In this document: positions 43,819 to 64,000 of the stretch, one piece after another
Numbering within the stretch: the first letter of the stretch is position 1
Layout: every line of letters begins with the position of its first letter
Source: Amycolatopsis sp. FBCC-B4732
GTDB taxonomy: Bacteria; Actinomycetota; Actinomycetes; Mycobacteriales; Pseudonocardiaceae
Assembly: GCF_023008405.1 (NCBI RefSeq)
Contig: NZ_CP095376.1
Span: forward strand, 1,202,001 to 1,266,000
Direction of reading: 5' to 3'
Length of the DNA stretch: 64,000 nucleotides
Program-made: the position numbers and the translations under genes
The notes under the pieces: model-generated
What the model saw: only the letters and a program-made list of their open reading frames with translations
Database searches by the model: none
Told to the model about the DNA's origin: nothing

Positions 43819-46218
43819 ATGGCCAACTCGCCCGAAACCGCGTGGAATACGTACGAGGTGCCGATACCGGCGGGGATCCTTCGCGCGGTTCCGGCCGTCG
43901 GCGATCAGCTCGACCTGCTGGTAGCCGCGTACGCCAAGGTGACCTCGGTCCTCACGGGGGAGCGGGCGGTGTCCGCGGGGTTCCGGTCGGCGGCGCATGA
44001 ACGGGCACGGCTGCTTCGATTGACCGTCGAGGACGGCTCCTGGCTCGATCTGCTGAAGCTGTCGCACGAGGCCAGACAGCGCCCGGCCGATCGCCTTCCG
44101 GCGGGTACCCTGCCGGGCGAAACCGGTGCGGGATACGAAACGGCGTTGGACCTCTCCGGCTGGACAGGCCCTTCGGGGCCGGACATCGACCACTCCGGAC
44201 TGGTCTCGCTGTGGAGTCTCGTCGAGGTCGGCGGCGCGCCGGCACTCCGGATGAAGTACCGCCCGGACTGCTGCAGCGAAGTGAGCGCCGTGCGTCGCGG
44301 AGGCTATTTCTGCCGTGCGCTCGAAGCCATCGTCCACGATGTCGCTGCGGATCACGGCGACCACGTCCTCGTTTCGCCGGAAGAACTCGAACTGCAGATG
44401 CGGGAGCTCTCCGGACCGGCGGCCGATCTCCCTCCGGAGCCGTTCCACCGCGCGTTTTCGGCGCAGTGCGCAAAGACTCCGGACGCACCGGCCGTCAAGG
44501 ACGGTGACCGGGCATGCTCCTACCTGGAGCTCGACCGGCTGGCGAACCGGATCGCGCACTCTCTGCTGCGGCACGGTCTCAGTGCCGAAGGCGTCGTCGC
44601 GGTAAGCCTGCCGAGGTCTGTCGAGTGGGTCGCGGCCATCATCGGGGTGCTGCGGGCAGGCGGTGCCTACCTCCCGGTGGATCCCGGTTGGCCGGCAGAG
44701 CGGGCGAAAGTCGTTCTGGAGCAGGCCGAAGCGCAGATCCTGCTGACTGGCGAGCCTGCCGAGGACGGCGGGGGCGGGACCGGCGAACCGGCCTTCAGCG
44801 CCGCACGAGTGCTGAACATCCGCACGGCGCTGCAGGAATCGAACGAGGGCACCCCGGACGTCGATGTGGTGGCGTCGCAGTTGGCGTACATCTACTTCAC
44901 CTCCGGCTCCACCGGCGCGCCGAAGGGAGCGATGTGCGAGCACGCCGGGGTGATGAACCACCTCGTGGCGAAGCTGGAACACCTCGACATCACCGCCGAG
45001 GACCTCCTGGTGCAGAGTGCGCCGGCCACGTTCGACATCTCGTTGTGGCAAGCGATCGCCCCGCTGCTCGTCGGCGCGGCGACGATGATCGTCCCCGCCG
45101 GGCAGGTCCGGGACATCGATGCCTTCATCACCGAAGCCGGGAAGGCGGGGGCGACGGTGCTGCAGGTCGTCCCGTCCTACCTGGAACTGCTCACGACGCG
45201 ACTGGCAGAGCTGGAGCCGGCACACCGGCTGCCTACCGTGCGGCACGTGGTGGTCACGGGGGAAGTCCTGAAGAAGGAGCTCGTGGAGCGGTGGTTCGCG
45301 CTGTGTTCCATCCCGTTGACGAACGCGTACGGGGCGACCGAGGCGTCGGACGACACCACGCACCACACGATGGTGGAGCCCCCCGCCTCGACGTCGGTGC
45401 CGGTCGGCAAGCCCGTGCGCAACGTGCGTGTGCTGATCATCGACGACCGTGCCCAGGTACTGCCTCTGGGGGCGCCGGGAGAAATCGCCTTTGCCGGTGT
45501 GTGCGTCGGCCGGGGCTACGTCAACGACGAAAAGCGCACGGCAAGGGCCTTCTCGTACAGCCGGACCGATCCACCGGTGCGGATCTACCGGACCGGCGAC
45601 TACGGGCGGTGGTGCCCGGACGGGGTGCTCGAATTCCTCGGCCGCCGCGACGAGCAGATCAAGATCCGCGGTATGCGCGTGGAGCTCGGTGAAATCGAGA
45701 ACGCGATGCTCCGCGTCAGTGGCGTGCGCGACGCCGCGGTGGTCGTCAAGCGCGGCGCAGATCCCGACACGGGATTGGTCGGGTACTACACGGCAGCGCA
45801 CCCCGTCGCGGCCGCGGATCTTCGATCAGCCCTGGCCGGGACGCTGCCCGGGTACATGATTCCCGCGCACCTGCGCCGCCTGCCGGTCATGCCGTTGACC
45901 GACAACTCGAAGATCGACAAAGCCGCCCTGGTGGACCAGGCGGATGTCGCCGGCCCGGCCAGGGAGGAGGGTGCGGCACCGCGAACAGAATCCGAGCTGA
46001 TGCTGGCACAGCTCTGGGCGGAGCTCCTCGGCCTGCCGCTGTCGAACATCGGCCGCAACGACGACTTCTTCCGCAGAGGAGGCAGCTCCCTGTCGGCCAT
46101 CCAGCTCGTCGTCAGACTGGGCAAACGGGTGTCGCTGCTCGACGTCGTGAGCAATCCGGTCCTGGCCGACCTCGCCGCCGCTGTCGACGGAAGTCGCCAC
46201 CCGGGAGGCGAGCCGTGA
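43819..46218 (+). CDS. NRPS module A-T with N-terminal half condensation-like domain
   Basis: A 799-residue protein. Residues ~1-190 resemble only the C-terminal half of a condensation domain and lack HHxxxDG. The adenylation domain spans ~205-705: A3 YFTSGSTGAPKG (359-370), A4 FDISLWQ (405-411), A5 NAYGATEAS (502-510), A7 YRTGDYGR, A8 GRRDEQIKIRGMRVELGEIE, A10 Lys698. The carrier domain has Ser757 in GGSSL. All core motifs are intact. Pocket residues read from A4-A5 are D-I-W-Q-V-T-A-D-D; the paired Asp at the end would suit a basic amine side chain (inference). The next gene overlaps its stop. Confidence 0.9.
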   Translation: MANSPETAWNTYEVPIPAGILRAVPAVGDQLDLLVAAYAKVTSVLTGERAVSAGFRSAAHERARLLRLTVEDGSWLDLLKLSHEARQRPADRLPAGTLPGETGAGYETALDLSGWTGPSGPDIDHSGLVSLWSLVEVGGAPALRMKYRPDCCSEVSAVRRGGYFCRALEAIVHDVAADHGDHVLVSPEELELQMRELSGPAADLPPEPFHRAFSAQCAKTPDAPAVKDGDRACSYLELDRLANRIAHSLLRHGLSAEGVVAVSLPRSVEWVAAIIGVLRAGGAYLPVDPGWPAERAKVVLEQAEAQILLTGEPAEDGGGGTGEPAFSAARVLNIRTALQESNEGTPDVDVVASQLAYIYFTSGSTGAPKGAMCEHAGVMNHLVAKLEHLDITAEDLLVQSAPATFDISLWQAIAPLLVGAATMIVPAGQVRDIDAFITEAGKAGATVLQVVPSYLELLTTRLAELEPAHRLPTVRHVVVTGEVLKKELVERWFALCSIPLTNAYGATEASDDTTHHTMVEPPASTSVPVGKPVRNVRVLIIDDRAQVLPLGAPGEIAFAGVCVGRGYVNDEKRTARAFSYSRTDPPVRIYRTGDYGRWCPDGVLEFLGRRDEQIKIRGMRVELGEIENAMLRVSGVRDAAVVVKRGADPDTGLVGYYTAAHPVAAADLRSALAGTLPGYMIPAHLRRLPVMPLTDNSKIDKAALVDQADVAGPAREEGAAPRTESELMLAQLWAELLGLPLSNIGRNDDFFRRGGSSLSAIQLVVRLGKRVSLLDVVSNPVLADLAAAVDGSRHPGGEP

Positions 46219-46952
46219 TGCAGGACGGTGATCACCGGGCGAAGCTGCTGCGGGCTCTGGAGTACCGTCGATCGTTCGACGCCCGGCTCGAACGGATGGA
46301 CCGGGAGACGCCATTCGATCGGGTTCACGGCGTGGACACCGGGACGCCGGTCGAGCTCTGGGAGCTACCCGAAGCGGACCTGATGCCGATCGGGCGGAAC
46401 GCCCGGTACGCGCCGGCGCCCGTTCGCACGGTGCGGAACGTGCTCGCTTCCTGTGGTCTCGTGCACGAAGAAGTCACGTTCGTCGACGTCGGGTGCGGCA
46501 AGGGACGGGTCCTGCTGCTGGCCGCGGAATTCCCCTTCCGCCGGATCGTCGGAGTCGAGGCGTCGGAGACGCTGTGCGACATCGCGCGGGACAACGTGCA
46601 CACCATGTCACATGTCCACGGCGGGTACGACCGGATCGAAGTGGTGAACGCCGATGCCGCGCAGTTCGACGTCCCCGGCGACGCAGGGTTTTTCTTCTTC
46701 TACGAACCCTTCTCCGCCGAGGTGTCATCGACCGTTCTCGAGCGCATCGAGAGTTCGATCCGGCAGTGCCCCCGCGACGTCCTCCTGTGCTTCACAGGCC
46801 GGGGACAACCGGAAGACGAGGACGGTGAAGCCCAGTCGCGGCCGGTGGCGGCCGCGGCCGCGGAGGCGCGAGCCGGCTGGCGGGCGGCCGGAACCGTAGC
46901 GTCACCGGACGCGAAATTCTACGACTCGTTCCTGTTCGAGTACCTGGGGTGA
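46215..46952 (+). CDS. Class I SAM-dependent methyltransferase-like protein
   Basis: A 245-residue protein. SAM-binding motif I is TFVDVGCGKGRVLLLAAEF (~88-106), with the acidic end of strand 2 in IVGVEASE and a VVNADAAQFDVPG strand. After motif IV it has an unusual FFFFYEPF instead of the common (D/N)PP(Y/F). Likely acts on a carrier-bound or free intermediate of the cluster. GTG/ATG tandem start after GGAGG, overlapping the NRPS stop. Confidence 0.78.
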   Translation: MMQDGDHRAKLLRALEYRRSFDARLERMDRETPFDRVHGVDTGTPVELWELPEADLMPIGRNARYAPAPVRTVRNVLASCGLVHEEVTFVDVGCGKGRVLLLAAEFPFRRIVGVEASETLCDIARDNVHTMSHVHGGYDRIEVVNADAAQFDVPGDAGFFFFYEPFSAEVSSTVLERIESSIRQCPRDVLLCFTGRGQPEDEDGEAQSRPVAAAAAEARAGWRAAGTVASPDAKFYDSFLFEYLG

Positions 46953-47002
46953 GAACTGCTGTCGCAGCGCTGTACCCAACCGATGGGGAAGGAAGCCCGA
47001 AG

Positions 47003-47854
47003 ATGACCGCTCAGTTCGAATCGATCAGGACCTTGCAGGACCGCGTCCCCGAACAGGAGAAGGACCAGATTCGCGAGATCTACGACGACATCGCGGCGGA
47101 GTACGACCGGCGGATCCCGGGCGAGGGGCCCACGGACCACATCTTCACCGAGTCCGAGTCCGAATTCCTGCTGTCGAAGACGCACGCGGGTGATGAAGTC
47201 CTCGATCTGGGCTGCGGGACCGGACGGTTCACCATTCCCCTGGCCGAATCCGGCGCGGTCGTGACCGGGTTGGACCTGTCGCCCGGCATGCTCGCGGTGG
47301 CCCGCGCCAAGCTGGGGGAGCGGGGGCTGCGGGCGGACCTGCGGGAAGGGGACATGGCCGACCTGCCGTTCCCCGACGCCTGCTTCGACGTCGTGACCAG
47401 CATGCTGGCCCTGATGCACATCCCGATCCCGGACCGGCCGAGGGTGTTCCGCGAGGTGCACCGGGTCTTGAAGCCGGGTGGCCGCATGGTGCTGTGTGTG
47501 AAGAATGCGGTTTTCGAGCGAATGTTCACCGGCGACCGGTTCGCCTCGGTGGACATCACGGACGTGCAGGACAAGAAACTGATCTTCACCGGTACCGGTA
47601 ACGGCACCGAGCACACCGCGTCGTGGTACAGCTTCGCGCCGCACGACTTGGCCGCGCTCTTCGCCGGGGCAGGGATGGCGGTGACGCACCTGAAAGGCAA
47701 CAGCCCGGTCAGCGCGTGGCTGGCGGACGAAGTCCTCGCCGACGTCCGGGTACGGGGATTCGTCCGGACGCTGGAACGGGCGCTGTCCGACGTGCCGCCC
47801 TTCAACCACCTCGGCTACTACCTGCTGGCCGAAGCGGTCAAACCAGTCGCTTGA
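47003..47854 (+). CDS. Class I SAM-dependent methyltransferase (UbiE/MT11 type)
   Basis: A 283-residue methyltransferase. Motif I is VLDLGCGTGRFTIPLA (~67-82), motif II TGLDLSPGMLAVAR, then EGDMADLPFPDACFDVV and the post-motif RVLKPGGRMVL. A textbook methyltransferase-11 domain with an N-terminal cap starting QIREIYDDIAAEYDRR. Substrate unknown. ATG at 47003, 50 nt after the previous gene, same strand, so part of the first NRPS operon. Confidence 0.88.
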   Translation: MTAQFESIRTLQDRVPEQEKDQIREIYDDIAAEYDRRIPGEGPTDHIFTESESEFLLSKTHAGDEVLDLGCGTGRFTIPLAESGAVVTGLDLSPGMLAVARAKLGERGLRADLREGDMADLPFPDACFDVVTSMLALMHIPIPDRPRVFREVHRVLKPGGRMVLCVKNAVFERMFTGDRFASVDITDVQDKKLIFTGTGNGTEHTASWYSFAPHDLAALFAGAGMAVTHLKGNSPVSAWLADEVLADVRVRGFVRTLERALSDVPPFNHLGYYLLAEAVKPVA

Positions 47855-47935
47855 CCGCTTCTCCGGCGCCGCCGGCCGGCTCCTGCGGGAGCGAGGACCG
47901 GTGGCGCCGGAGCGGAGCGGGGACGGAGGCAAGTC

Positions 47936-48295
47936 ATGACCAGCGTGATTCTCACGGTGACGATCGACTGCGTGGACGCCGAATCATTGTCCGAATTCTG
48001 GTGCCGGGTACTCGGCTACGCGAAGATCAGGCGGTTCACCGACGCCAAGGGCGTCGAATACATCGAGGTCGGCGGCGACCGGGAGCCGGTGCTGCTCTTC
48101 CAGCCTGTGCCCGACGCCAAATCGGGGAAGAACCGGCTGCACCTCGACATGGCGCCGGCCGAGGGCAGCCTGGCCGACGAAGTCCGCCGCCTGGTCGGCC
48201 TCGGCGCCCGCCTGCTGGTGGACGACCCGGAGTGCCCGTGGACCGTCCTGGCCGATCCCGAAGGCAACGAGTTCTGCGTCCTGCCCCGGGCATGA
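47936..48295 (+). CDS. VOC/glyoxalase-like domain protein
   Basis: A 119-residue protein of the glyoxalase-like VOC group. Paired beta-alpha-beta-beta-beta units start at SVILTVTIDCVDAESLSEFWCRVLG and NRLHLDMAPAEG and end with the typical ADPEGNEFCVL. Metal ligands expected in VOC proteins (H/E) are partly present (His at ~70, Glu at ~113). In antibiotic clusters such proteins are either resistance binders or enzymes. It follows the methyltransferase by 81 nt. Confidence 0.82.
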   Translation: MTSVILTVTIDCVDAESLSEFWCRVLGYAKIRRFTDAKGVEYIEVGGDREPVLLFQPVPDAKSGKNRLHLDMAPAEGSLADEVRRLVGLGARLLVDDPECPWTVLADPEGNEFCVLPRA

Positions 48296-48337
48296 CCGCA
48301 GCTCCTCTCGTGCCCGCTGCCGTCCCCGGCATCCGTC

Positions 48338-49915
48338 TCAGCCGCGGCGGACCGCCGTGCGCGGCGTGACGAAGCTGCCATTGATCACGTAGCCGTCCAA
48401 GCCGTGCTTCTCGCCGTAGGCGATGAGGTCGCTGGTGCGGTTGATGAAGCCTCGTCCGTTGTTGTTCAGCGAGGTGTTGCACAGGACGCTGAAGCCGGTG
48501 CGGTCGCGGAAGGCCTCGAGCAGGTCCGCGATGCCGGGGTTTTGCTCACGCGTGACCGTCTGGGTCCGCGCGGTGCCGTCGACGTGGGTGACCGCCTTGA
48601 GCCGGTCGGACGTGACGTGGTTGAAGTAGAGCATGTACGGGTCCACGACCGATCCGGCGAACCACCGGGGCGCATCGGACTCCAGCACGATCGGGGCGAT
48701 CGGACGGTATCCTTCGCGGCGCTTGATCCGGTTGAGCCGGACCGTGGTGTCCTCCGTGAAGGGTGCGGCCAAGATGGACCGGTTGCCCAGCGCACGGGGC
48801 CCCATTTCGTAGCGACCGCGGGCCCAGCCGATGATGTGGCCGCGTTCGAGGTGTTCGGCGACGTCCGCGGCGACCAGCGGACGCACGGCGTAGGCCGACG
48901 GGTCAGGCTGGACGTCTTCGACGAATTCCTCGCCCGCGTAGACCGTCCAGTCGATCGTGGCCTGACCGGTGTAGAACCATTGGGCGTCGATGGCGGTGCC
49001 AAGAGCGGAGCCGCTGTCGTTCGGGCACGGCGGGACGAACACCGATTCGAACAGGTCGCTCTCCCGCCACATCCGGTTCCAGTCGCAGTTGAGCCCGCAG
49101 CCGCCGGAGACCAGCAGCGGCAGACCTTCGGTGAGGTTCTTCTCGGCGTAGTCGTGGAAAGCGGAAAAGATCGCATCGGAGTGCCGCTTGGCGAGGTTCC
49201 GGTACTCCTGCGACTCGACACCCTTGTCATGTACGGGAGACCACGACATGGCTTCCTTGGGCAGCGACGAAAAGACCCGGTTCTGGGCCAGGATGAACTC
49301 GATCGTCTTCAGCTCTCGCCCGGTGAGCGGCACGTCTTCGGCGAAGCCGGTCAGCGCCATCTGCTTGCCGGCGTCGCCGAAGCGGAAGACAGCACCGCCG
49401 GGGTGCGCCGGATCGGCGAGCGCGAACAGGAACGCGTACTTGCTGCCCGGGTCGCTCATCACCTCCTTGAGGTGGGTGGCTTCGCCCTTGGCGTCCACGC
49501 GGTAGAACGATCCGATGTGGCCTTCCCAGACCAGCGCGTAGTACTCCTTGCCAGGAGCCGCCGGTGCCATCCCGAGAGAGGCGTAGATGTGCGACCGTTC
49601 GTGGGTCGAGGAGAAGTGCCGGATCTGCTTGCCGAAGATCCGGCCCGCCGCATCGGAGGTCGAGCCTTCGCCGACTCCGAAGTATCCCGTCCGTGACGGC
49701 GGATCGGCCAAGGAGAAGCCTTTCATCCACCCGCCGAGCGCTACGACGTCCGGAACCCGGTCCAGTGCGCCGACGGCTCGGGTGACCACGTCGGCGGTCA
49801 GCCGGTCGTACCGCGGGAAGTTGTCCTTCTCCGCCTCGAGCGAGAACAGCAGCTTGCCGTCCTCGATCGCGGCGACGCCGCCGTCGTGCCCTTCCTTCAT
49901 GGCCAAGATCAACAT
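48338..49915 (-). CDS. Carbamoyltransferase (NodU/CmcH family)
   Basis: A 525-residue enzyme. The N-terminal Kae1-like domain starts LILAMKEGHDGGVAAIEDGKL and includes THERSHIYASLGMAP and SGGCGLNCDWNRMW. A C-terminal YrdC-like domain has GYRPIAPIVLE and NTSLNNNGRGFI. This family (NodU, CmcH, TobZ, VioL) uses carbamoyl phosphate and ATP to carbamoylate hydroxyl or amine groups of natural products. So the product or an intermediate likely carries a carbamate or ureido group. Its ATG overlaps the end of the PEP-mutase-fold gene by 7 nt. Confidence 0.92.
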   Translation of the reverse strand: MLILAMKEGHDGGVAAIEDGKLLFSLEAEKDNFPRYDRLTADVVTRAVGALDRVPDVVALGGWMKGFSLADPPSRTGYFGVGEGSTSDAAGRIFGKQIRHFSSTHERSHIYASLGMAPAAPGKEYYALVWEGHIGSFYRVDAKGEATHLKEVMSDPGSKYAFLFALADPAHPGGAVFRFGDAGKQMALTGFAEDVPLTGRELKTIEFILAQNRVFSSLPKEAMSWSPVHDKGVESQEYRNLAKRHSDAIFSAFHDYAEKNLTEGLPLLVSGGCGLNCDWNRMWRESDLFESVFVPPCPNDSGSALGTAIDAQWFYTGQATIDWTVYAGEEFVEDVQPDPSAYAVRPLVAADVAEHLERGHIIGWARGRYEMGPRALGNRSILAAPFTEDTTVRLNRIKRREGYRPIAPIVLESDAPRWFAGSVVDPYMLYFNHVTSDRLKAVTHVDGTARTQTVTREQNPGIADLLEAFRDRTGFSVLCNTSLNNNGRGFINRTSDLIAYGEKHGLDGYVINGSFVTPRTAVRRG

Positions 49916-50772: not shown

Positions 50773-50856
50773 GATGACAACATTCCTTCCCCCGATCGTA
50801 AAGGTGGCCGCGGCTGCGACACACAGGACTTTTCCAGCCAGGGCCGCGCGCTGCTC

Positions 50857-50875
50857 CTGACTGATGTCAGTACGG
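50857..50875. promoter_or_regulatory. CTGAC-N4-GTCAG-TACGG element, copy 2
   Basis: CTGAC-TGAT-GTCAG then TACGG: a perfect 14-bp palindrome plus pentamer in the 151-bp divergent region between the PEP-mutase-fold gene and the aminotransferase-like gene. It lies 48 nt before the rightward ATG and 85 nt from the leftward GTG. Confidence 0.65.
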
Positions 50876-50923: not shown

Positions 50924-51967
50924 ATGGTGCCGTGTGTTCCGGATGCATCGGCCGGGGACGGACCTTCCGCACGGCAACGCCGAGTCGCTCTCGGAAGCGT
51001 TTCCCCGCTCGGCATTCCCGAGTTGCGCGAGGCGATCGTCGGTCGGGAACGAGCGGTGTCGAAGAGCGCCTTCGTCGGCAAAGCGAACGTGGCGGTCACC
51101 GAGGGAAGCGCGAACGCGGTCGGCGCCGCCTTGCGTCATTGTTCCGCCCGCGGCTACCGGAAGGCCGTCTGCGGGGCTCCGGTGCCGCTCCGGATCCGGA
51201 AATCGATGGCTTCCGCGGGATTCGCCGTGAAGGCGCTGCCACTGGCGTACGAGGAAGATGACTGGTTCGTCCTGCACCGCGCCTGCGGGGACCGGGCGGT
51301 GATCTACCTGAGCTTGCCCGATGACCCCACCGGAGCGGTGGCCACGGCCGGCTACCTGTCGATGCTCGCAGGGTTCGCCGCTTCGCATGACGTGGTTCTC
51401 GTGTACGACGCCAGGTTGGACGCGTTCCGGTTCACGGCGGACAGCTGCCCGACGCCGGTCGATCTCGCCGTTTCGGCCTCGAACGTCGTCGTCGTCAACT
51501 CGCTGGCGGAGAACTACGGCGGGACAGGCGACCGTGTCGGGTGGATCGTCGCACACGAGGCGGTCGTCGACGGCCTGGCACACCAGCCCGGGTGGGCCGC
51601 GAACCGGGTGAGTCTCAGTGACCAGCTGGCGGCGGTGCGCGTCCTGGGCGAGGGCAACGACGCGGTGACAGCCGAGGTCCGGAACGGCCGCGCCGCGTAC
51701 CAGGCCCGCGTGGCGGGGCACCGGATCTTGGACGTGCCCCTCCCGGGGGGTGGCAGCCGGCTGTGGCTGGATCTCGGCGTCCGCGACGTCGACTCGCTGG
51801 CCAAGTACGCGCGGATCGAGCACCAGCTCGTGCTCACGACCTCGTCCGGCTACGCACCGCCGGAGCCGGGACACATCCTCTTCCCCACCGGGGTTCCGGT
51901 CCACCGCCTGTGCGAAGGCGTGGACAAGCTCGAACGGGTGCTCGCCGGATGGGGAGACGGGCCTTGA
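50924..51967 (+). CDS. Aminotransferase-fold protein lacking the PLP lysine
   Basis: A 347-residue fold-type I (class I/II aminotransferase) homologue. Visible landmarks: the PLP-ring region TEGSANAV, LPDDPTG (the NPxxPTG equivalent), VLVYDARLDAFRF (the D-x-x-Y strand, without the Tyr) and NSLAENYGGTGDRVGW, which aligns with the normal SxSKxxGxPGxRxGW. Glu196 occupies the Schiff-base lysine position; the phosphate-binding Arg204 is kept. The substrate-carboxylate Arg near the C-terminus is not visible either. Good GGAGGAG before the ATG. First gene of the six-gene rightward operon. Probably not an aminotransferase in the usual sense. Confidence 0.75.
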   Translation: MVPCVPDASAGDGPSARQRRVALGSVSPLGIPELREAIVGRERAVSKSAFVGKANVAVTEGSANAVGAALRHCSARGYRKAVCGAPVPLRIRKSMASAGFAVKALPLAYEEDDWFVLHRACGDRAVIYLSLPDDPTGAVATAGYLSMLAGFAASHDVVLVYDARLDAFRFTADSCPTPVDLAVSASNVVVVNSLAENYGGTGDRVGWIVAHEAVVDGLAHQPGWAANRVSLSDQLAAVRVLGEGNDAVTAEVRNGRAAYQARVAGHRILDVPLPGGGSRLWLDLGVRDVDSLAKYARIEHQLVLTTSSGYAPPEPGHILFPTGVPVHRLCEGVDKLERVLAGWGDGP

Positions 51968-52025: not shown

Positions 52026-52331
52026 ATGCCCCGAAGTCCCCACGCTGCGGACCACGTCGCCGCCTTGACCACCATCTGGCGAGAGGTCCTGCGCAACGAC
52101 CACCTCGACGCGACCGCCGATCTGTTCGAGAACGGCGGTACGTCGCTCCACGTGCTGCAGATCGTCGGCCGGATCTACGACACGCTGGGTGTGGAAGTCC
52201 GGCCCCGGCACGTCTTCCTGCACGCCTCACCGCAGGACCTCACGGCGTTCCTGGTCGAAGATCCGGCTAGTGAGCGGCCGGCCGGCCGGCGGTCGGACGA
52301 CGATCGAACCCACTCGCGACCCCGGAGGTAG
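52026..52331 (+). CDS. Free-standing peptidyl carrier protein
   Basis: A 101-residue carrier protein. The phosphopantetheine site is DLFENGGTSLHVLQIV with Ser at ~40; helices before and after fit a T domain, followed by a short charged tail. It would carry an aminoacyl or peptidyl thioester between the separate A and C proteins of this cluster. It sits directly before a free C domain (3 nt gap). Confidence 0.9.
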   Translation: MPRSPHAADHVAALTTIWREVLRNDHLDATADLFENGGTSLHVLQIVGRIYDTLGVEVRPRHVFLHASPQDLTAFLVEDPASERPAGRRSDDDRTHSRPRR

Positions 52332-52334
52332 ACG

Positions 52335-53644: not shown

Positions 53645-54376
53645 ATGCCGCGAGTTTCCGCCCGGCCGACGTTGCCGGAGATCGATCACCAGCTGCACTC
53701 GGCCGGGGAGCGGGGTGCGGACGCGCTCTTCCGGCGGGGCGAGGAGGTGGTCCGCCGCCTCACCGATCCGGCCGAACTGAGGTCGCTAGTCGAGCAGGTG
53801 CTGGCAGACGAGACCCGTCTCGCGCGGATCGCCGCGCGTTCGTACTACCACGCGAACAACTTCCTGAAGGTGGTCCTGATGGGAGGAGCCGGGGACACCT
53901 GGAAGCTCCGCCTGCACGTGTGGCACCCGCAGCCGGCGGGTGCCACGTTGAAACAGGAGGACGTGCACTCGCACCGGTGGGACTTCACCACCGCCATCGT
54001 GCTCGGGAAGTACCACGCCCGCGAGTTCGGCATCGCGCCCGGTGAGGAGTACCACCACTACAACTACCTCCCGGTCGGCGACTCGCGATCGTTCTCCTTG
54101 GTCTCGCGTGGCCCCGAACAGCTCCGCACGGTGTTCGACGCCACTTTGCCCATGGGGACCGTGTACCACCTCGACCACCGGGTTCTCCACAGCATTTCCC
54201 AGGCCGACACCGAGCCGGTGGCGTCGGTCGTCATGCAGGGCGTGCCGGTCCGCGACGCGACAGACGTCTACCGCACGACACGGATCGGCGACGAGCCCAC
54301 CACCGAAAACGCGGTCCACCGGCCGTCGTCCGCACTGCTGGCGAAGGAGCTGGTGCAGTTCCTGTCCTGGATCTGA
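53645..54376 (+). CDS. Cupin-fold protein
   Basis: A 243-residue protein. An N-terminal helical ~90 residues precede a cupin core with DVHSHRWDFTTAIVLG (His pair and Asp, a likely metal site) and the second-motif equivalent MGTVYHLDHRVLHSIS. Two-histidine metal sites of this type occur in cupin oxygenases and isomerases. No closer family recognised. ATG with AGGA just before it; 47 nt after the C-domain gene on the same strand. Confidence 0.7.
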   Translation: MPRVSARPTLPEIDHQLHSAGERGADALFRRGEEVVRRLTDPAELRSLVEQVLADETRLARIAARSYYHANNFLKVVLMGGAGDTWKLRLHVWHPQPAGATLKQEDVHSHRWDFTTAIVLGKYHAREFGIAPGEEYHHYNYLPVGDSRSFSLVSRGPEQLRTVFDATLPMGTVYHLDHRVLHSISQADTEPVASVVMQGVPVRDATDVYRTTRIGDEPTTENAVHRPSSALLAKELVQFLSWI

Positions 54377-54388: not shown

Positions 54389-54757
54389 ATGACCCGATAT
54401 CGGCACACCGCCCGGGACGCGGCGCGGTTCTCCAAACACGGGATCGACCTCACGGTCTACGGTCAGACTTCGTCCTTGGTCACCGTCGCGCGGGTGTATG
54501 TCGAGAAAGGACACTTCGAGGAGTTCTTCGATCTGCGGAGCACCTACCTCTACTACATCGTGAGTGGCCGGGGAACGTTTGTCCTCGACGATGAAGCGGT
54601 GGTCGCCGAAGAGACCGACCTGGTGGTCGTTCCACCGAACACGCGCATCTACTACTTCGGGACGATGGAGATCCTCCTGACTGTGTCTCCTTCGTTCGAC
54701 GAGCGCAACGAGCGGCACGTGCGGTTCGTGGCCGACAGCGAGAGTCCCTACCGATGA
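54389..54757 (+). CDS. Small single-domain cupin
   Basis: A 122-residue cupin. LYYIVSGRGTFVLDDEAV and ETDLVVVPPNTRIYYFGTMEILLTVSP give the two cupin motifs, but the expected metal-binding His residues are replaced by Tyr and others, so it may bind ligand without metal. GGAGGG before the ATG. Its stop overlaps the start of the EEP gene as ATGA. Confidence 0.75.
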   Translation: MTRYRHTARDAARFSKHGIDLTVYGQTSSLVTVARVYVEKGHFEEFFDLRSTYLYYIVSGRGTFVLDDEAVVAEETDLVVVPPNTRIYYFGTMEILLTVSPSFDERNERHVRFVADSESPYR

Positions 54758-55527
54758 CGGCGGGAGCCGGTTCGGTGAAGCTCGCCACCTGGAACATCGG
54801 GGGTGGCGTCCTGGGGCCGTCCCACCAGAGCGGCGGCGAGCCGTCGCTCGGCTACCACGCGTCGATCCTGGCGGCGCACTCACCCGACGTGGTCTGCCTG
54901 CAGGAGGCGCACGACTACCGGGGACGCGGGGAGAGCCAGCCGGACCGCCTGGCCCGCGAGCTGGGCTACCCGTACGTGGCGTCCTTCCCGGTTTGCGAGT
55001 CGCACCTGGACGAGAACGCCGCATTGGCACTGGCGATCCTGTCGCGTTTCCCGGTGCTGGACGTCGTCGGCACGAAGCTGCCCAACCCCGGGCTGACCTG
55101 GACCGGCCCGGACGGTACTCCGTGGACACTGGCCGACAAGGGCTATGTCACGGCGGTCGTCGACTTGGGCGACCGGGAGATCGGCATCCTCAACGGGCAC
55201 TGCTTTCCCCTGCACTACTTCGGGGCGAGCCCGCTCGAGGCCCGGTTCGCGCCGGGGTGGGAGGCACTCGGGGCGGACCTGATGGCGATGAAGGCGGAAC
55301 GGTCCGCATTCGCCGCCCTCGACCTCAACCACGAGCCGGTGCACAGCGTGCTGCGGGATGTCCTCGGCGCGGATGGCTACGCCACCGCGTTCGAGAACAC
55401 ACCCACGACGCCCAAAGGTGTGCAGCAGGACTACATCCTCTACGATTCCGCGGTGCGGATGCTCACGTCCACCGTGGCCGGCACGCGCGCCGACCACTTC
55501 TACTGCGAGGCCGGTTTCCTCGTGTGA
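54754..55527 (+). CDS. Endonuclease/exonuclease/phosphatase (EEP) family protein
   Basis: A 257-residue EEP-fold hydrolase. LATWNIGGG (Asn), DVVCLQEAHDY (Glu), LDLNHEP (the GDxN equivalent), QDYILY and terminal ADHFYCEAGF (the SDH equivalent) keep the metal and catalytic residues. Family members cleave phosphodiesters or phosphomonoesters in nucleic acids, sugars or lipids. In a peptide cluster it might remove a phosphate or nucleotidyl group from a pro-drug or intermediate; this is inference. Last gene of the rightward operon; its end overlaps the convergent TauD-like gene by 28 nt. Confidence 0.82.
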   Translation: MTAGAGSVKLATWNIGGGVLGPSHQSGGEPSLGYHASILAAHSPDVVCLQEAHDYRGRGESQPDRLARELGYPYVASFPVCESHLDENAALALAILSRFPVLDVVGTKLPNPGLTWTGPDGTPWTLADKGYVTAVVDLGDREIGILNGHCFPLHYFGASPLEARFAPGWEALGADLMAMKAERSAFAALDLNHEPVHSVLRDVLGADGYATAFENTPTTPKGVQQDYILYDSAVRMLTSTVAGTRADHFYCEAGFLV

Positions 55528-57844: not shown

Positions 57845-57855
57845 GGTCACACCTT

Positions 57856-59064: not shown

Positions 59065-59223
59065 ACGACTTCTCCTTTCGGCTTCCGGTGCCCCTCCGAG
59101 CTTCGTGGAATCCTGCTCCCGGAAGTCCTGGCATCTGACAGGAACAGGGTGCCCGCGTGCTGTTCGCCGTGGTCGGAAAGCGGCGGGTCGCGCGGACCCG
59201 GCGGTTCCCGGAATCGGGCGTGC

Positions 59224-59229
59224 TAGGTT
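59224..59229 (+). promoter_or_regulatory. -10 element for leaderless MFS transcript
   Basis: TAGGTT ends 7 nt before the ATG at 59237, leaderless geometry. No Shine-Dalgarno precedes the ATG and the -35 is unclear. Confidence 0.45.
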
Positions 59230-59236
59230 GCCTCAG

Positions 59237-60529
59237 ATGACGGATGAATCGACGGATCCGCAGCCTGCCGGGTCCAGGTCCGGTAGTCCGGCGCTGTGGC
59301 GTCACCGGGATTTCATGTTGCTTTGGAGCGGGCAGACGATCAGCGAGATGGGGTCCGCAGTCACCCAGATCGCCCTGCCGTTGGTCGCCGTACTCCTGCT
59401 CGACGCCAGCACGTTCGAGGTCGGGTTGCTGGCGGCGGCGGGTACGGCGGCGTTCGTGCTGATCGCGCTGCCCGCCGGGTCGATCGTGGACAGCCGGCCC
59501 AAACGCTCGGTCATGATCGTCTGCAACGTTCTCCGCCTGGTGGTCGTCGGGTCGGTCCCGGCGGCCGCCGCGTTCGGCGTGCTGACGATGGCGCAGCTGT
59601 ACGCGGTCGCGTTGGCGGCCGGGGTGTGCACGGTGTTCTTCGACGTCGCCTACCAGAGTTACGTGCCGTCCCTGATCGCCGCCGACGACCTGATGGACGC
59701 CAACGGCAAGCTGGGAACCACCCAGGCGTTCGCGCAGCTGGGTGGGCCAAGCCTGGGCGGGGGACTGGTCGGCCTGTTCGGCGCCGCGGGCGCGATGGTG
59801 GCCGATGCGCTCTCCTACGTGGTCTCCGTCCTGTCGATCCTCGGGATCGCGAAACGCGAGGAGCCTCCGGCGCGGCCGGTGGACGAGCCGCTGCGGCGCC
59901 GGATCACCGGGGGCCTGAGGTTCGTCCTCGGTCACCCCGTGCTGCGCCAGGTCGTCGCGTGCACGGGCACCGCGAACCTGTTCTCCGGTATGAGCTGGTC
60001 GCTGGCGATCGTGTTCCTCGTCCGCGAGCTGCACGTGAAGCCCGCCCTGACCGGGCTGGTGATGGCGGCCGCCGCGGTCGGCGGGATAGCCGGGGGAGCG
60101 CTGGCCGGGCGCCTCGCGAAGAAGATCGGTTCGGCGCGGATCATCTGGGTGTCGACCCTCGTTTTCGGGGCGCCGCAGACCATCGTGGCGGCTGCCTGGC
60201 CGGGCTGGGGAGTGCTGCTGGCCCCGCTGGGCTGGGCCATCGGCTATTTCGCCTCGATGGTTTACAACATCGCGCAGCTCAGCTACCGCCAGTCGGTGAC
60301 ACCGCCGGAGCTGATGGGCCGGATGAACGCGGCCGTCCGCTGGGTGGTGTGGGGCACGCTCCCGCTCGGCGGCGTTCTCGGTGGCCTGCTGGGCACACTG
60401 ATCGGCGTGCGGGCGACGTTGTGGCTCGCGTTCGGCGGCGCTTGGGCGGCCGGCTGGTTCGTTTTCTTTTCTCCGCTTCGCCGACTCCGTGACGTTCCGC
60501 AGTCCGTGCCGGAGTCCGCCTCACGCTGA
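59237..60529 (+). CDS. MFS transporter (drug efflux type)
   Basis: A 430-residue major facilitator with about 12 helices. It begins ALWRHRDFMLLWSGQTISEMGSAVTQIALPL, the usual start of actinobacterial MFS exporters of the enterobactin-exporter (EntS-like) group. The loop 2-3 motif reads GSIVDSRPKRSVM. It likely exports the cluster product and gives self-protection. Divergent from the condensation-protein operon. Confidence 0.9.
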   Translation: MTDESTDPQPAGSRSGSPALWRHRDFMLLWSGQTISEMGSAVTQIALPLVAVLLLDASTFEVGLLAAAGTAAFVLIALPAGSIVDSRPKRSVMIVCNVLRLVVVGSVPAAAAFGVLTMAQLYAVALAAGVCTVFFDVAYQSYVPSLIAADDLMDANGKLGTTQAFAQLGGPSLGGGLVGLFGAAGAMVADALSYVVSVLSILGIAKREEPPARPVDEPLRRRITGGLRFVLGHPVLRQVVACTGTANLFSGMSWSLAIVFLVRELHVKPALTGLVMAAAAVGGIAGGALAGRLAKKIGSARIIWVSTLVFGAPQTIVAAAWPGWGVLLAPLGWAIGYFASMVYNIAQLSYRQSVTPPELMGRMNAAVRWVVWGTLPLGGVLGGLLGTLIGVRATLWLAFGGAWAAGWFVFFSPLRRLRDVPQSVPESASR

Positions 60530-60533
60530 GGCA

Positions 60534-60558
60534 GTCCGACGCCCCGAGATCGTCGGAG
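60534..60558 (+). terminator. Possible terminator after the MFS gene
   Basis: TCCGACG (60535-60541) pairs with CGTCGGA (60551-60557) across a 9-nt loop just after the MFS stop. There is no U-run, so this is tentative. Confidence 0.35.
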
Positions 60559-60560
60559 TC

Positions 60561-60579
60561 CTATCCGATGTCAGTACGG
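60561..60579. promoter_or_regulatory. CTGAC-N4-GTCAG-TACGG element, copy 3
   Basis: CTATC-CGAT-GTCAG then TACGG. The right half and pentamer are identical to copies 1 and 2; the left half has two changes. It lies 99 nt before the start of the second NRPS gene. Confidence 0.6.
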
Positions 60580-60678
60580 ACCGGTGTCGCAAGCGCATTA
60601 GCGTCTTCGTCGTCGCATCGCCCCACTACGAACGCCTAGCTCTTGAGCTGGCGGCTTGTCGCAGGGAAAGGCTGGTCC

Positions 60679-63219
60679 GTGACGGAGCAAGTCGAGGCAG
60701 TTCGTGATCGGACGGCGCTCGGAGCGGGCCCGGTGCGGCCGCTCCCGGATCGCCGCGTTCACGAGCTCTTCGCGGAGTGCGCGCGCAACACGCCGTCAGG
60801 AGTCGCGGCCGTGCACCGCGGCGTCCGCCGGACCTACGCCGAACTCGACGAGGCTGCCGATCGGGTGGCCGGGACGCTGCTGGCAGCCGGGCTTCCCGCC
60901 GAGGGCGTCGTCGCGGTGATCAGTCAGCGTTCGCTCGACTGGCTCGCGGCGATCCTGGGCGTTTTCAAAGCGGGCGGGGTCTACCTGCCGATCGATCCCG
61001 CGTTCTCCGACGACCGCATCGCAGAACTGCTGCGCCGCAGTGGTTGCCGGTTCTCGCTGGTCGAGGGGGAAGCGGCGGTGGGCCGGGTCGAGGCGGCGGC
61101 GGTGCGCGCGCTGCCGCTGGTGCCGGAGGGAAACCCCGGAGGACGGGCTGAGTGCGTTCCGGCCGGAGCACCGGCCTACCTCTTCTTCACCTTCCGGTCC
61201 ACAGGCGAGGCGAAGGGCGCTGTCTGCGAACACGCCGGCTTCCTCAACCACCTGCTGGCCAAGGTGGAGGTCTTCGAACTGAGGCCGGGCGCAGTCGTCG
61301 CCCAGACCGCGTCCCAGTGCTTCGACATCTCGCTGTGGCAGGCGCTGGCGCCGCTCGTCGTCGGCGGTACCACCGTGGTCGTGGACCCCGAAACGATGCT
61401 GGACGTGCCCGAGCTGTTGCGGCTGCTGGCCGCCGAGGAGGTCGACGTCCTGCAGCTGGTCCCGAACTACCTTTCCCTGCTGGTCACCCGGCTGGAACAG
61501 GGACACCGGATGCCCGATTCCCTCAGGATGCTGGGCATCACCGGCGAAGCCGTGAGCTCTCGGCTGCTCGCCCGGTGGTTCGCCAGTTGCCCGGCGGTCC
61601 CGGTGGTCAACGGTTACGGCGCGACGGAGGCGTCGGACGACACCACTCACGAGGTCATTCGCACCACGGCGGACGGCGGGCAGGTGAACGTGGGCGCGCC
61701 GATCGCGAACGTCTTCGTCGACGTCGTCGGCGCGGACGGGCTACCGGTCGGCGGGATCGGCGAAATCGGCGAGGTCACCTTCTCCGGCGTCTGCGTCGGC
61801 CGGGGTTACGTCGACGACCCCAAGCACACGGCGGAGGTGTTCGGTGCCGATCCGCTCCGGCCCGGACTGCGCCGCTACTTGACCGGAGACTGCGGGCGCT
61901 GGCTGCCCGGTGGCCGGCTCAAGCTGGTCGGGCGGCGGGACGAGCAGTTGACGATCGATGGCGTCCAGGTGGAGGCCGGTGCGGTCGAGGCCACCCTCCA
62001 AGGGGTGCCGGGGGTCCGGTCGGCGTGTGTGATCGTCGTCCCCGACGGGCCGGCCAAACGCCTGGCCGGTTTCTACACCGCGGCGTCGCCGATGGCCGAT
62101 ATCGGTGACCTGCTGGCCGGGCTGGTGCCCCGGCAGCAGGTGCCGTCCACGCTGCGCTGGCTACCGGAGCTCCCGCTCACCGGTAACGGGAAGGTCGACC
62201 GGCGTGGGCTGGCCGACCTCGAGACGAGCATGGCGAACGGCAACACCATCCTGCCCCCGCGGACAGCCACTGAGCGGGTGATCGCCACGGCCTGGGCAGA
62301 GGTGCTCGGCCTGCCGCTCGGGGAAGTCGGCCGGACCGACGACTTCTTCGTGCGCGGTGGCGGCTCACTGGCCGGCGTCCGGCTCGTGGTGCAGCTTCGC
62401 GGCCTCGTGTCCCTCGTGGACCTCATGGCGAACCCGGTGCTCGCTGACCTGGCGGCGGTCGCGGACGGTGTCCGACCGCGTGGCTCTTCGCTTCTCCAAG
62501 AGCTCTCGGTGCCGGAGAACGCAGTCGCGGCCTTGGTCTGCGTGCCGTACGAGGCGGGCAACGCGCTCAACTTCGAGTCGATGGCCCGGGCGCTGGCGCC
62601 GGCGGCCGTGGCGGTGTACGCGGTGGAACTGCCGGGCCACGATGCCGCCCGCCCGGACGAAGAGCTGGCCGGCCTCGACCGGCTGGCCGGCCGCTTGACC
62701 CGGGAGATCGTCGACCGGATCGGGCACCCCGTGGCGCTGTGGGGCCACGGGACCGGCGCGGCGCTCGCGATGGAAACCGGCCGATCACTGCTGGCCGCCG
62801 GGATGCCGCCTCGGCACCTGTTCGTCGCGGCGGCGACCCGGCAGGAGCCACGCGACAGTGCTGCGGCAGCCGTGGAAGCCGGCGCGTGGTTACGCGATTC
62901 TGGAGCGCTGACCGATGTGGACCACTGGCGCACCGCGCGCGGCGAGCTGATCGAGCGCGCCTACCGGCACGACATCGATGTGGCGGAGCGATATTTCGCC
63001 ACTTGCGGAGAGCCCATCGACATTCCCGCGACCATTGTCGTGGTCCCGCGGGCGCCCGGGGAGAGCGGCGCCGCGGCTCGGTGCACGGCCGTCCTTCCCG
63101 CGGTACGGACAACGTGGTTCGAGGACCCGGATCGGTATTTCGTCCGCAACGATCCCCGCACGGCGGCGCACCTCGTCGCTGCGACGATCGCGGCCGCGGA
63201 GGAAGGCGGTTCCCGGTGA
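60679..63219 (+). CDS. NRPS A-T-TE with degenerate A3 loop and thioesterase triad
   Basis: An 846-residue protein: adenylation (~25-515), carrier (Ser563 in GGGSL) and C-terminal thioesterase (~600-846). A4 FDISLWQ and A5 NGYGATEAS are intact, but A3 reads FTFRSTGEAKG instead of xTSGSTGxPKG, and A8 reads EQLTIDGVQVEAG instead of the usual KIRG. A10 Lys505 is present. Pocket residues read D-I-W-Q-G-T-G-D-D, close to the first NRPS. The thioesterase has GHGTG (689-693) where GxSxG is expected, so the nucleophile is Gly691; the end PDRYFV replaces the usual GxHFF. The GTG at 60679 was chosen after GGGAAAGG. Confidence 0.85.
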   Translation: MTEQVEAVRDRTALGAGPVRPLPDRRVHELFAECARNTPSGVAAVHRGVRRTYAELDEAADRVAGTLLAAGLPAEGVVAVISQRSLDWLAAILGVFKAGGVYLPIDPAFSDDRIAELLRRSGCRFSLVEGEAAVGRVEAAAVRALPLVPEGNPGGRAECVPAGAPAYLFFTFRSTGEAKGAVCEHAGFLNHLLAKVEVFELRPGAVVAQTASQCFDISLWQALAPLVVGGTTVVVDPETMLDVPELLRLLAAEEVDVLQLVPNYLSLLVTRLEQGHRMPDSLRMLGITGEAVSSRLLARWFASCPAVPVVNGYGATEASDDTTHEVIRTTADGGQVNVGAPIANVFVDVVGADGLPVGGIGEIGEVTFSGVCVGRGYVDDPKHTAEVFGADPLRPGLRRYLTGDCGRWLPGGRLKLVGRRDEQLTIDGVQVEAGAVEATLQGVPGVRSACVIVVPDGPAKRLAGFYTAASPMADIGDLLAGLVPRQQVPSTLRWLPELPLTGNGKVDRRGLADLETSMANGNTILPPRTATERVIATAWAEVLGLPLGEVGRTDDFFVRGGGSLAGVRLVVQLRGLVSLVDLMANPVLADLAAVADGVRPRGSSLLQELSVPENAVAALVCVPYEAGNALNFESMARALAPAAVAVYAVELPGHDAARPDEELAGLDRLAGRLTREIVDRIGHPVALWGHGTGAALAMETGRSLLAAGMPPRHLFVAAATRQEPRDSAAAAVEAGAWLRDSGALTDVDHWRTARGELIERAYRHDIDVAERYFATCGEPIDIPATIVVVPRAPGESGAAARCTAVLPAVRTTWFEDPDRYFVRNDPRTAAHLVAATIAAAEEGGSR

Positions 63220-64000
63220 CGCTGACCGGCAGGCTTGCGGAGACGCCGCACGACTTCATCCGGCAGGAATTCCTCGAACCACAGTTCCGGCACGAGGTCG
63301 CTCACCTTTTGCGCTGGTACGTGCTGATCGAGAAAGCGCTCCTAACCGAGTACCGCCGCCTTGGCCTCCTGTCCGCCCGGCAGGTCGGTCAGATCGCGGC
63401 GGCGCTCGACGGACTGACTCCCGAGGAACTCACCGTCACTGCCGGAGCGGCTCTCTCGGACATCGCCCTGGCGATGGAGACGCGGGTCACCGAGGCGCTG
63501 CCGGAGCCGGCACCGACCTGGCACGTCGACCGGAGCCGCAACGACCTGCAAGCCTGCGCACAACTGCTGCACGGACGTGAGCGGCTCGGTGAGGTCGCCG
63601 CCATGCTCGCCCAGCTGGCCGAAGTGGCGCACGAACGCGCGGGCCACGACGTGAGCTCGCCGATGCCCGGGTACACGCAGTTGCAGTCGGCGCAGGTCAT
63701 CACCCCCGGTTTCTACCTCAGCGCCGTGGTGGAGCACGTGCTGCGAGTGTCGTCCCGATTGCTCGGTACCTACGACCGGATCAACTTCTCCCCGCTCGGC
63801 GCCGGGCCGATGGCAGGCCAGGAACTGGCTTGGGACCGGGACCGCCTGGCGCGGGCCGTCGGCTGCGCCGGTCCGGTCCCCCACGCGCTGACCGCCGTGG
63901 CGTCGCGGGACTGGCTGCTCGATATCGCCGCAGACATCGCCTCCGCGGGGGTGGGGTTCAGCCGCTTCCTGACCGACCTCATGGCCTGGTCGTCGAGTGC
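63216..64000 (+). CDS. Argininosuccinate lyase-like protein (partial, 3' end cut by window edge)
   Basis: The first ~261 residues of an ASL/fumarase-superfamily protein. WHVDRSRNDLQ matches the HTGRSRND motif, and SPMPGYTQLQSAQ matches PGYTHLQRAQ with the catalytic His replaced by Gln155. PLGAGPMAGQELAWDRDRLA follows as in ASL. The GSSxMPxKxNP loop with the catalytic serine lies beyond the window. True ASL makes arginine; homologues in natural-product clusters cleave C-N bonds. GTG overlapping the NRPS stop, so translationally coupled to it. Confidence 0.85.
   Translation, partial: MTLTGRLAETPHDFIRQEFLEPQFRHEVAHLLRWYVLIEKALLTEYRRLGLLSARQVGQIAAALDGLTPEELTVTAGAALSDIALAMETRVTEALPEPAPTWHVDRSRNDLQACAQLLHGRERLGEVAAMLAQLAEVAHERAGHDVSSPMPGYTQLQSAQVITPGFYLSAVVEHVLRVSSRLLGTYDRINFSPLGAGPMAGQELAWDRDRLARAVGCAGPVPHALTAVASRDWLLDIAADIASAGVGFSRFLTDLMAWSSS

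Follow-up and report, generated by a model that had tools for sequence, protein, structure and literature searches.

We scrutinized a 64,000-nucleotide stretch of the Amycolatopsis sp. FBCC-B4732 genome (the window; positions 1202001-1266000 of a single 10.19-Mb contig) and found that its right-hand part enters a biosynthetic gene cluster that is very probably a variant-type uridyl peptide antibiotic cluster, related to those of pacidamycin and mureidomycin. Placement in this class follows from an orthologue of the dehydratase Pac13, a gene set shared with other Pac13-containing clusters, the residues of a Phe 3-hydroxylase and a shared operator-like site; the product should therefore carry a modified uridine. 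We call it a variant, not a plain member, because a PacK-type flavin oxidase was sought in the cluster without success and the peptide arm is different. We infer the product and every reaction from homology, residues, operator-like sites and gene sharing, which are observed directly. Gene scans place the cluster between ~42.1 and ~81.9 kb (roughly 40 kb), so the window edge at 64 kb cuts it and the genes inside the window form its left half; positions above 64000 carry the window numbering on past the right edge. Domains were assigned by Pfam and NCBIfam scans of window and flank frames, and canonical family motifs are those we presume to be standard, save where a reference sequence was aligned. 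The initial annotation of the window had ended the cluster at 64 kb, which proved too narrow given condensation (C) domains at ~69.1 and 73.4 kb. It had also matched the locus to no described cluster and proposed a carbamoylated or ureido peptide, missing the modified uridine; the Pac13 match, shared genes, hydroxylase residues and operator-like sites move this reading to the uridyl peptide class.

The 122-amino-acid cupin encoded at 54389..54757 (plus strand) matched Pac13 (PDB 5njn) with 63% identity over residues 1-121 of 121 (176 bits) and retains His42, making it a predicted Pac13/PacM-type uridine-5'-aldehyde dehydratase, as found in uridyl peptide clusters. Pac13 dehydrates uridine-5'-aldehyde in pacidamycin synthesis and requires H42 (PMC5656905, in part). 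We regard the window protein as an orthologue of this enzyme, the dehydratase behind the 3'-deoxyuridine of pacidamycin, mureidomycin and sansanmycin. When an alignment of three Pac13-type proteins was used as query, homologues were found in 2 of 397 genomes of the host's order (this genome and Micromonospora sp. ALFpr18c, G175) and in 6 of 392 sampled genomes from the genus to which S. viridochromogenes NRRL 3413 belongs. The host genome belongs to the same order as Micromonospora, and we take it to lie outside Streptomyces. Known producers of uridyl peptide antibiotics are placed in Streptomyces (PMC10643210, PMC4858918 and PMC4572928, each in part). A pattern scan for Pac13 across an 84,980-species collection returned 22 loci, four from Streptomyces, one from Micromonospora and 17 from metagenome bins. 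The Pac13-like cupins of these bins, which include CPR2, Levybacteria, Amesbacteria, Kerfeldbacteria, Doudnabacteria, Saccharibacteria and Bacillota, showed 40-61% identity; at E 1e-8, no other cluster genes were found nearby in the 7 of the 17 loci tested.

Gene sharing was determined by tblastn of 38 window and flank frames against stretches from relatives. Shared genes were 40-83% identical, and up to 17 had orthologues in Streptomyces clusters holding a Pac13-type dehydratase. S. viridochromogenes NRRL 3413 shared all 17 (52-83%), namely the regulator (58%), exporter (73%), second free C protein C2 (57%), class III aminotransferase (79%), TauD-like protein (61%), cupin 1 (52%), EEP protein (62%), free thiolation (T) domain (57%), first free C protein C1 (52%), Pac13 (64%), adenylation-thiolation-thioesterase (A-T-TE) protein (72%), argininosuccinate-lyase-like (ASL-like) protein (83%), kinase (79%), PALP/ATP-grasp protein (79%), aldolase (80%), free A domain (73%) and methyltransferase 1 (66%). 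S. fuscichromogenes has 16 of these (EEP is not in its 60 kb), and S. wedmorensis NRRL 3426 has 9 of the 17 on a 33-kb contig, plus the hydroxylase (68%). The block from A-T-TE to aldolase was absent from the stretches examined of S. canus contig 24 and genome G739, and whole-genome searches returned no close A-T-TE in S. canus (best 50%) or G739 (none); in genome G789 this gene lies 9.5 kb beyond the stretch examined. Gene order in S. viridochromogenes runs exporter, C, aminotransferase, TauD, cupin, and further on T, C, small protein, FAD oxidase, A-T, followed by Pac13, C, A, A-T-TE, ASL, kinase, PALP, aldolase, A and T-methyltransferase, an order that fits pac letters C to V. The roles of PacE, PacI, PacK, PacM and PacN are those given in section 3 of PMC10643210.

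A biopterin-dependent aromatic hydroxylase at ~81 kb (ending at 81915) is a predicted Phe 3-hydroxylase and provides the feature expected for meta-tyrosine supply. Phe 3-hydroxylases have Cys187 and Thr202 in place of Phe and Gly (PMC7027792, section 9). The protein reads TLECG and YGATL where the Phe 4-hydroxylase PDB 1phz reads TVEFG and YGAGL, with the two residues 15 apart, the same spacing as C187 and T202. The Cys and Thr pair is common to S. wedmorensis and G409, and S. canus has Cys and Ser.

The gene at 42080..42889 (plus strand) encodes a 269-amino-acid candidate SsaA/PacA-type pathway regulator. It had no Pfam or NCBIfam hit, and its class is proposed from conservation, with homologues (56-62%) in 7 of 9 relatives' clusters: S. 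viridochromogenes, S. fuscichromogenes, S. canus contig 24, the Micromonospora, G409, G506 and G789. The stretches of S. wedmorensis and G739 and two additional S. canus contigs contained none. SsaA orthologues combine a forkhead-associated (FHA) domain with a LuxR-type helix-turn-helix (HTH) (PMC4572928, in part), and by our own reading the 42080 protein may contain an HTH.

Three exact operator-like sites occur in the genome, all in the cluster (no strand was assigned). CCTGACCGGTGTCAGTAC at 43719..43736 lies 83 bp 5' of the A-T gene at 43819, CCTGACTGATGTCAGTAC at 50856..50873 lies 51 bp 5' of the gene at 50924, and the third is 87 bp 5' of the free A domain if that gene starts at 79497. 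A weaker site with two mismatches (60560..60577) precedes the A-T-TE gene. Near-matches to what we take to be the SsaA operator consensus occurred in the window at chance level (3 versus 1.5 expected), but stood 5' of genes, and its presumed exact core CTGACANNTGTCAG had no perfect match in 94 loci. The pattern CCTGAC-NNN-TGTCAGTAC was then seen in the window and relatives; this sharpening followed inspection of both, and the fairest test is the genome-wide count. With up to one mismatch allowed, the 18-bp CCTGANNNNTGTCAGTAC was found at three places in 10.19 Mb, all of them the exact sites above, and its reversed control at none. Within the window the tighter pattern gave three matches at up to two mismatches (two exact) versus 0.06 expected. 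Across 7 of 10 clusters there were 17 exact places, with none in G739, G409 or G506. All 17 were outside genes, defined as those matched by query frames, and 5' of cluster genes. They precede T-C1 (six clusters, including the 50924 group of the window), the free A domain (three), A-T-TE (three), 43819-type A-T or T genes (two), EEP (one) and two others. These sites and the SsaA-like regulator would form a candidate pair.

The peptide is predicted to be assembled by a largely dissociated nonribosomal peptide synthetase (NRPS), and free T and free C proteins, a feature of uridyl peptide clusters, are present; two C-A-T proteins are not dissociated. The A-T protein at 43819..46218 (plus strand) has intact A motifs and a ~200-residue N-terminal stretch lacking any Pfam hit, and its orthologue in S. 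fuscichromogenes is 64-68% identical. Read by eye at positions that we presume to be the specificity positions, its A-domain code is D-I-W-S-V-T-A-D-D-K, which carries no weight beyond agreement with a diamino acid. A free-standing T domain (52026..52331, plus strand) has homologues in 9 of 10 relatives' stretches that hold C1, the exception being G506. C1 (52335..53597, plus strand; Pfam E 3e-25; DHxxxD) has homologues at 46-53% in relatives; 14 plasmid records gave weak matches to it, none covering at least 80% of the query. C2 (57856..59064, minus strand) had no Pfam hit even at E 0.5 and is probably a second free-standing C protein, judging by its DHxxxD motif and by homologues (40-57%) that adjoin C1. 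Of the two His in HHxxxDG, the catalytic second one persists (as DHxxxD) in 9/9 and 7/7 sequences of the two free C families, so neither is dead by this test.

Beyond the window edge, gene scans located the C-A-T proteins CAT1 (69120-72197) and CAT2 (73437-76436), an acyl-CoA dehydrogenase between them (ending at 73345), and the free A domain (79497, if that is the start, to 81050). A small MbtH-like stretch near 78.06 kb was found with two relatives' small proteins as queries, and the label is guessed from its length and location. The cluster holds four C domains, and the A3 motif is intact or nearly so in four A domains (PKP replaces PKG in CAT1); a pseudo-tetrapeptide and its release would need that many of each. 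In a tree of 34 C domains, that of CAT1 grouped (100/100) with C domains beside Pac13 in four relatives (top identity 37%); from this position the group appears PacN-like. The CAT2 C domain, with HQIVFDG against canonical HHxxxDG, took no sure place; it sat on a long branch, and the C1 and C2 groups were on long branches as well.

The A-T-TE protein (60643..63219, plus strand) retains an intact T domain between A and TE domains with residue losses. Its TE motif GHSxG reads GHG[TA]G in 5/5 orthologues, the window copy included (Ser to Gly); G789 has, outside its cluster, a distant A-T-TE protein in which the motif is still GHSSG. Its A3 and A8 motifs are degenerate, with 7 of 62 near-invariant columns changed here and 5 of 62 in S. 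fuscichromogenes, one of which reflects the truncated start of the called sequence. No column was changed in the A-T-TE proteins of S. viridochromogenes and S. wedmorensis or in both 43819-type proteins, although these four were among the 12 other A domains from which the columns were chosen, so that the zeros, including that of the 43819 A domain itself, are partly built in. A3, A5 and A8 are intact in G789. The A domain of A-T-TE is degenerate where a 43819-type A-T gene is present in the cluster (2/2) and intact elsewhere (3/3); of that gene, S. viridochromogenes and G789 show the T domain only and S. wedmorensis nothing. One further related protein is encoded elsewhere in each of the genomes of S. 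fuscichromogenes (49%) and G789 (45%). This small sample would fit one A domain taking over from the other.

The TauD-like protein (~55500-56531, minus strand) lacks the facial triad HxD/E...H of TauD/LipL-type Fe(II) dioxygenases: against PDB 1y0z, HxE has become [FV]QE in 6/6 sequences, and Gln (five) or Leu (one) stands in place of the distal His. A LipL-like route to uridine-5'-aldehyde through this protein was rejected on these grounds. Since the TE and TauD-like losses are common to all orthologues examined, they are old and either tolerated or useful.

The product of 50924..51967 (plus strand) is a class I/II pseudo-aminotransferase related to the beta-methylarginine aminotransferase family (TIGR04544). 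It matched only from profile position 53 with 281.6 bits, below the cut-off of 350, and has Glu in place of the pyridoxal phosphate (PLP)-binding Lys when compared with four class I enzymes of the same genome; it therefore has neither the lysine nor the score of that family, and an arginine-derived product of MrsB type was rejected. Homologues were found at E 1e-20 in none of 199 other genomes of the order and orthologues in none of the relatives' clusters. TIGR04544 at 1e-40 registered in none of the 199 and in one of 14 control genomes, there below cut-off.

Presumed amino-acid supply genes straddle the window edge. The ASL-like gene (63216-64712, plus strand, crossing the edge at 64000), a GHMP kinase (~64709-65641) and a fused SbnA-like PLP enzyme (PALP) and ATP-grasp ligase (65638-67926) stand in a row, followed by a GntG-type (threonine-aldolase-type) aldolase (67923-68975, 429.8 bits). 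We assume that the first three serve 2,3-diaminobutyrate synthesis. In the GSSxMPQKKN loop of the ASL-like protein, all four sequences retain the first Ser and have Ala for the second. Methyltransferase 1 (46215..46952, plus strand), a candidate N-methyltransferase of diaminobutyrate, has homologues at 66-67% in S. viridochromogenes, S. fuscichromogenes and G789. UbiE-like methyltransferase 2 (46949..47854, plus strand) had weak matches only (32-34%) in the relatives examined.

The candidate 5'-aminotransferase (PacE role) is a class III aminotransferase (~56564-57850, minus strand) with homologues at 76-80% in four relatives (S. viridochromogenes, S. fuscichromogenes, S. canus contig 24 and G789), each with Pac13; no match was found in the S. 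wedmorensis and G739 stretches. Upstream of Pac13 lies a cupin-like gene, cupin 1, at 53645..54376 (plus strand; open frame from 53594, start estimated from homologues), which had no Pfam hit above cut-off, keeps an HSH motif in 6/6 aligned sequences including its own, and has homologues at 49-53% in eight relatives' stretches. The EEP nuclease/phosphatase-like protein (54754..55527, plus strand) has homologues at 53-62% in eight relatives' stretches. It is possibly of the SSGG-02980 kind, to judge by the description of that protein, not its sequence (PMC10714638, in part). A PPOX-type protein (F420-dependent PPOX oxidoreductases; 64.2 bits against a cut-off of 79.05) occurs in 5 of 6 close relatives and was not found in the 102 kb around the present cluster; it may be the type of enzyme responsible for uracil reduction in mureidomycins (PMC10714638, in part). 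An F420-type LLM oxidoreductase (78304-79350, minus strand) may do the PacK-type or the PPOX-type job.

In the pathway that we propose, uridine would be oxidised to uridine-5'-aldehyde, which the Pac13-type cupin would dehydrate and the class III enzyme transaminate to 3'-deoxy-4',5'-enamino-uridine. Threonine would be converted to 2,3-diaminobutyrate by the ASL-like, kinase and SbnA-like enzymes and then N-methylated by the methyltransferase. The 43819 A domain would load diaminobutyrate, also in trans onto the T domain of A-T-TE, whose own A and TE have lost key residues, and the Phe 3-hydroxylase would supply meta-tyrosine. Free C proteins would join the parts, one of them (PacI role), instead of the TE, releasing the chain onto the aminouridine. 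The PacN-like C domain of CAT1 would form the ureido link, and the second C-A-T, acyl-CoA dehydrogenase and carbamoyltransferase would alter the ureido arm. The product would inhibit MraY. A fuller version, in which both arm and route are new, is offered tentatively: the 5'-aldehyde would arise without PacK, perhaps through the LLM oxidoreductase at 78304; the ureido arm would be extended and desaturated by C-A-T, acyl-CoA dehydrogenase and C-A-T; a carbamoyl group would be added; the non-catalytic TE and TauD folds would act as carriers or scaffolds; and A duty would have moved to the trans-acting paralogue.

Among the remaining genes, a NodU/TobZ-type carbamoyltransferase is encoded on the minus strand at 48338..49915 (open frame 48338-50824; start estimated at the ATG before LILAMKEGHDGG). 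Its C-terminal domain is whole, the N-terminal Pfam domain is matched over its last 44 positions only, and the NodU profile is covered from 110 to 535 of 556. It has an HERSH motif; NodU/TobZ carbamoyltransferases carry an HxxxH-type metal motif. Its only counterpart in the relatives' stretches is in S. fuscichromogenes (32%), and the gene itself makes a carbamoyl step a possibility. Next to it is a glyoxalase-like gene (47936..48295, plus strand; PF18029, 6e-27). The MFS exporter (59237..60529, plus strand; start estimated from homologues) has homologues at 64-73% in S. viridochromogenes, S. fuscichromogenes and G789. A 511-amino-acid PP-loop-like protein (76491-78026) was recognized by a GGGKDS motif read by eye; it has conserved FCNxCN and TESDC motifs and no Pfam or NCBIfam match. 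It recurs in 3 of 199 other genomes of the order, adjoining an ATP-grasp-like gene in two, and a relative (44%) sits on one Methylobacter plasmid record near asparagine synthetase A and B12-binding genes. Predicted structures of the TauD-like and PP-loop proteins were poor (mean pLDDT 37.6 and 57.5) and were not used. To the left of the cluster, an AurF-type N-oxygenase frame (35354-36253) adjoins genes for a BTAD/NB-ARC regulator and an LCM-type methyltransferase; that region holds none of the three operator-like sites of the genome. Third-position GC of called genes is mostly 0.80-0.90 at ~33-81 kb versus mostly 0.89-0.97 on both flanks, for which acquired DNA is one explanation.

Pfam and NCBIfam scans confirmed the gene list of the initial annotation (A-T, T, C, A-T-TE, carbamoyltransferase, aminotransferase, methyltransferases, cupins, EEP, exporter, ASL-like), to which the glyoxalase-like, aminotransferase-like (50924) and TauD-like genes are additions. 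Of its two free C proteins, C1 is secure and C2 only probable; coherent operons with overlapping starts hold for several plus-strand genes, not for the carbamoyltransferase, TauD-like, class III aminotransferase and C2 genes on the minus strand. At least four proteins do lack residues of their families, as it stated (the PLP Lys of 50924, the TauD-like His pair, the TE Ser, A3/A8 and GYTH of the ASL-like protein), and no assigned frame between 42 and 82 kb is interrupted, in line with its claim of no broken frame. Frameshifts in related strains, its own check for a dead cluster, were not seen, genome-wide matches to C1 and A-T-TE being free of internal stops. A short peptide from dissociated NRPS parts, probably with a diamino acid and a ureido link, also agrees with our reading. 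The overall proposal thus holds in its assembly logic and active-site losses; leaving the class unmatched and proposing no nucleoside is overturned by the Pac13 orthologue and shared genes.

Several observations weigh against a uridyl peptide product. Searched with the relatives' FAD_binding_4 protein, the 102 kb around the cluster contained no PacK-type FAD oxidase, and the best FAD_binding_4 match in the genome was 37% over part of its length; a 443-amino-acid FAD_binding_4 protein, inferred to be PacK, is present in 6/6 close relatives (83-86% to the S. viridochromogenes copy). The TauD-like protein cannot replace PacK as an iron oxygenase. The ASL-like protein has GYTQ for GYTH, the His being kept in its three orthologues, and the site before A-T-TE, mismatched at two positions here, is exact in S. 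wedmorensis, S. viridochromogenes and S. fuscichromogenes. Most Pac letters, those other than PacE, PacI, PacK, PacM and PacN, are ones we presume and assign via gene order, and Pac13 is the only pacidamycin/mureidomycin sequence compared. The missing PacK is not fatal and its activity could be supplied from elsewhere, because deletion of ssaK still left traces of sansanmycin A (PMC10643210, section 5).

A decaying cluster, in which the inactive A, TE, ASL-like and aminotransferase-like parts would mark early loss and nothing or a truncated product would be made, is quite unlikely. The ASL-like His-to-Gln change and missing PacK, losses not seen in the orthologues at hand, would fit it, as would A3/A8 losses common only to S. 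fuscichromogenes, a PLP Lys-to-Glu change in a protein without orthologues in relatives, and the weaker site before A-T-TE. But the frames are open, three operator-like sites are intact, the TE and TauD-like losses are old, and the ASL-like protein (78-81% to three Streptomyces) is no more diverged than its operon neighbours (kinase 80-82%, PALP/ATP-grasp 76-79%). A carbamoylated peptide without a nucleoside, outside described classes, as in the initial annotation, is highly improbable: the carbamoyltransferase does lie inside the cluster, between two gene groups headed by operator-like sites, but the Pac13 orthologue and shared gene set speak for a nucleoside, and that enzyme's sole counterpart is distant.

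A uridine product other than enamino-uridine, for instance one formed by the aldolase at 67923 joining glycine to the dehydrated 5'-aldehyde, appears unlikely. PacK is absent, a threonine-aldolase-type enzyme does stand in the operon, and sister clusters pair Pac13 homologues with a serine hydroxymethyltransferase (SHMT)-like protein and show no class III aminotransferase match. Against this, the class III aminotransferase is strongly kept in four relatives, and the same aldolase stands in line with the ASL, kinase and SbnA-like genes in three Streptomyces clusters where the FAD oxidase is present. The sister clusters form a group of their own: Micromonospora sp. ALFpr18c, G409, G506 and one S. 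canus contig each have a Pac13 homologue and the SHMT-like protein (78-92% to the G409 copy), a pairing that suggests a different 3'-deoxyuridine core with an amino acid added to the aldehyde. Both kinds appear to occur in S. canus 299MFChir4.1, giving it two Pac13-type clusters.

Uridyl peptide antibiotics block MraY in bacterial cell-wall synthesis, a target without clinical use, and the same nucleoside logic with a different peptide arm hints at unseen members of the class. The operator-like site, regulator and accessory enzymes are handles for finding and switching on such clusters. The relatives make testable why a nucleophile-less TE and an iron-ligand-less TauD fold persist in every orthologue examined, whether one A domain serves two T domains once another decays, and how the 5'-aldehyde forms without PacK. 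Among the records listed by literature searches, none named a cluster of such make-up, which does not by itself prove absence.

Compared with the pacidamycin, sansanmycin and mureidomycin (napsamycin) systems, the cluster has in common a Pac13-type dehydratase, T and C domains on separate proteins, the residue pair of Phe 3-hydroxylases, an EEP protein, a candidate SsaA-like regulator, and ASL, kinase and SbnA-like genes suited to diaminobutyrate synthesis (pathway facts from PMC10643210, PMC4858918 and PMC4572928, each in part). It differs in that no PacK-type FAD oxidase is clustered, its PacN-like C domain is joined to A-T, and it has an additional C-A-T with HQxxxDG, an acyl-CoA dehydrogenase, a PP-loop protein, an LLM oxidoreductase, a carbamoyltransferase, a pseudo-aminotransferase, and an A-T-TE with degenerate A beside a second A-T gene. 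To our knowledge, known uridyl peptide clusters do not have these extra genes. Unlike MrsB, the beta-methylarginine aminotransferase, the 50924 protein falls below the TIGR04544 cut-off and has no PLP lysine. Of the closest relatives (S. viridochromogenes, S. wedmorensis, S. fuscichromogenes, S. canus 299MFChir4.1, G789 and G739), all but G739 share the exact operator-like sites; all six carry the FAD_binding_4 protein and five the PPOX-type protein, both missing from the 102 kb here. Micromonospora sp. ALFpr18c, G409 and G506 share Pac13, C1, C2, cupin 1, EEP, the Phe hydroxylase and the regulator with the present cluster, but their stretches encode the SHMT-like protein and gave no match to the class III aminotransferase, TauD, ASL or kinase of the window, G409 matching only the ATP-grasp half of the PALP/ATP-grasp protein in part (32%).

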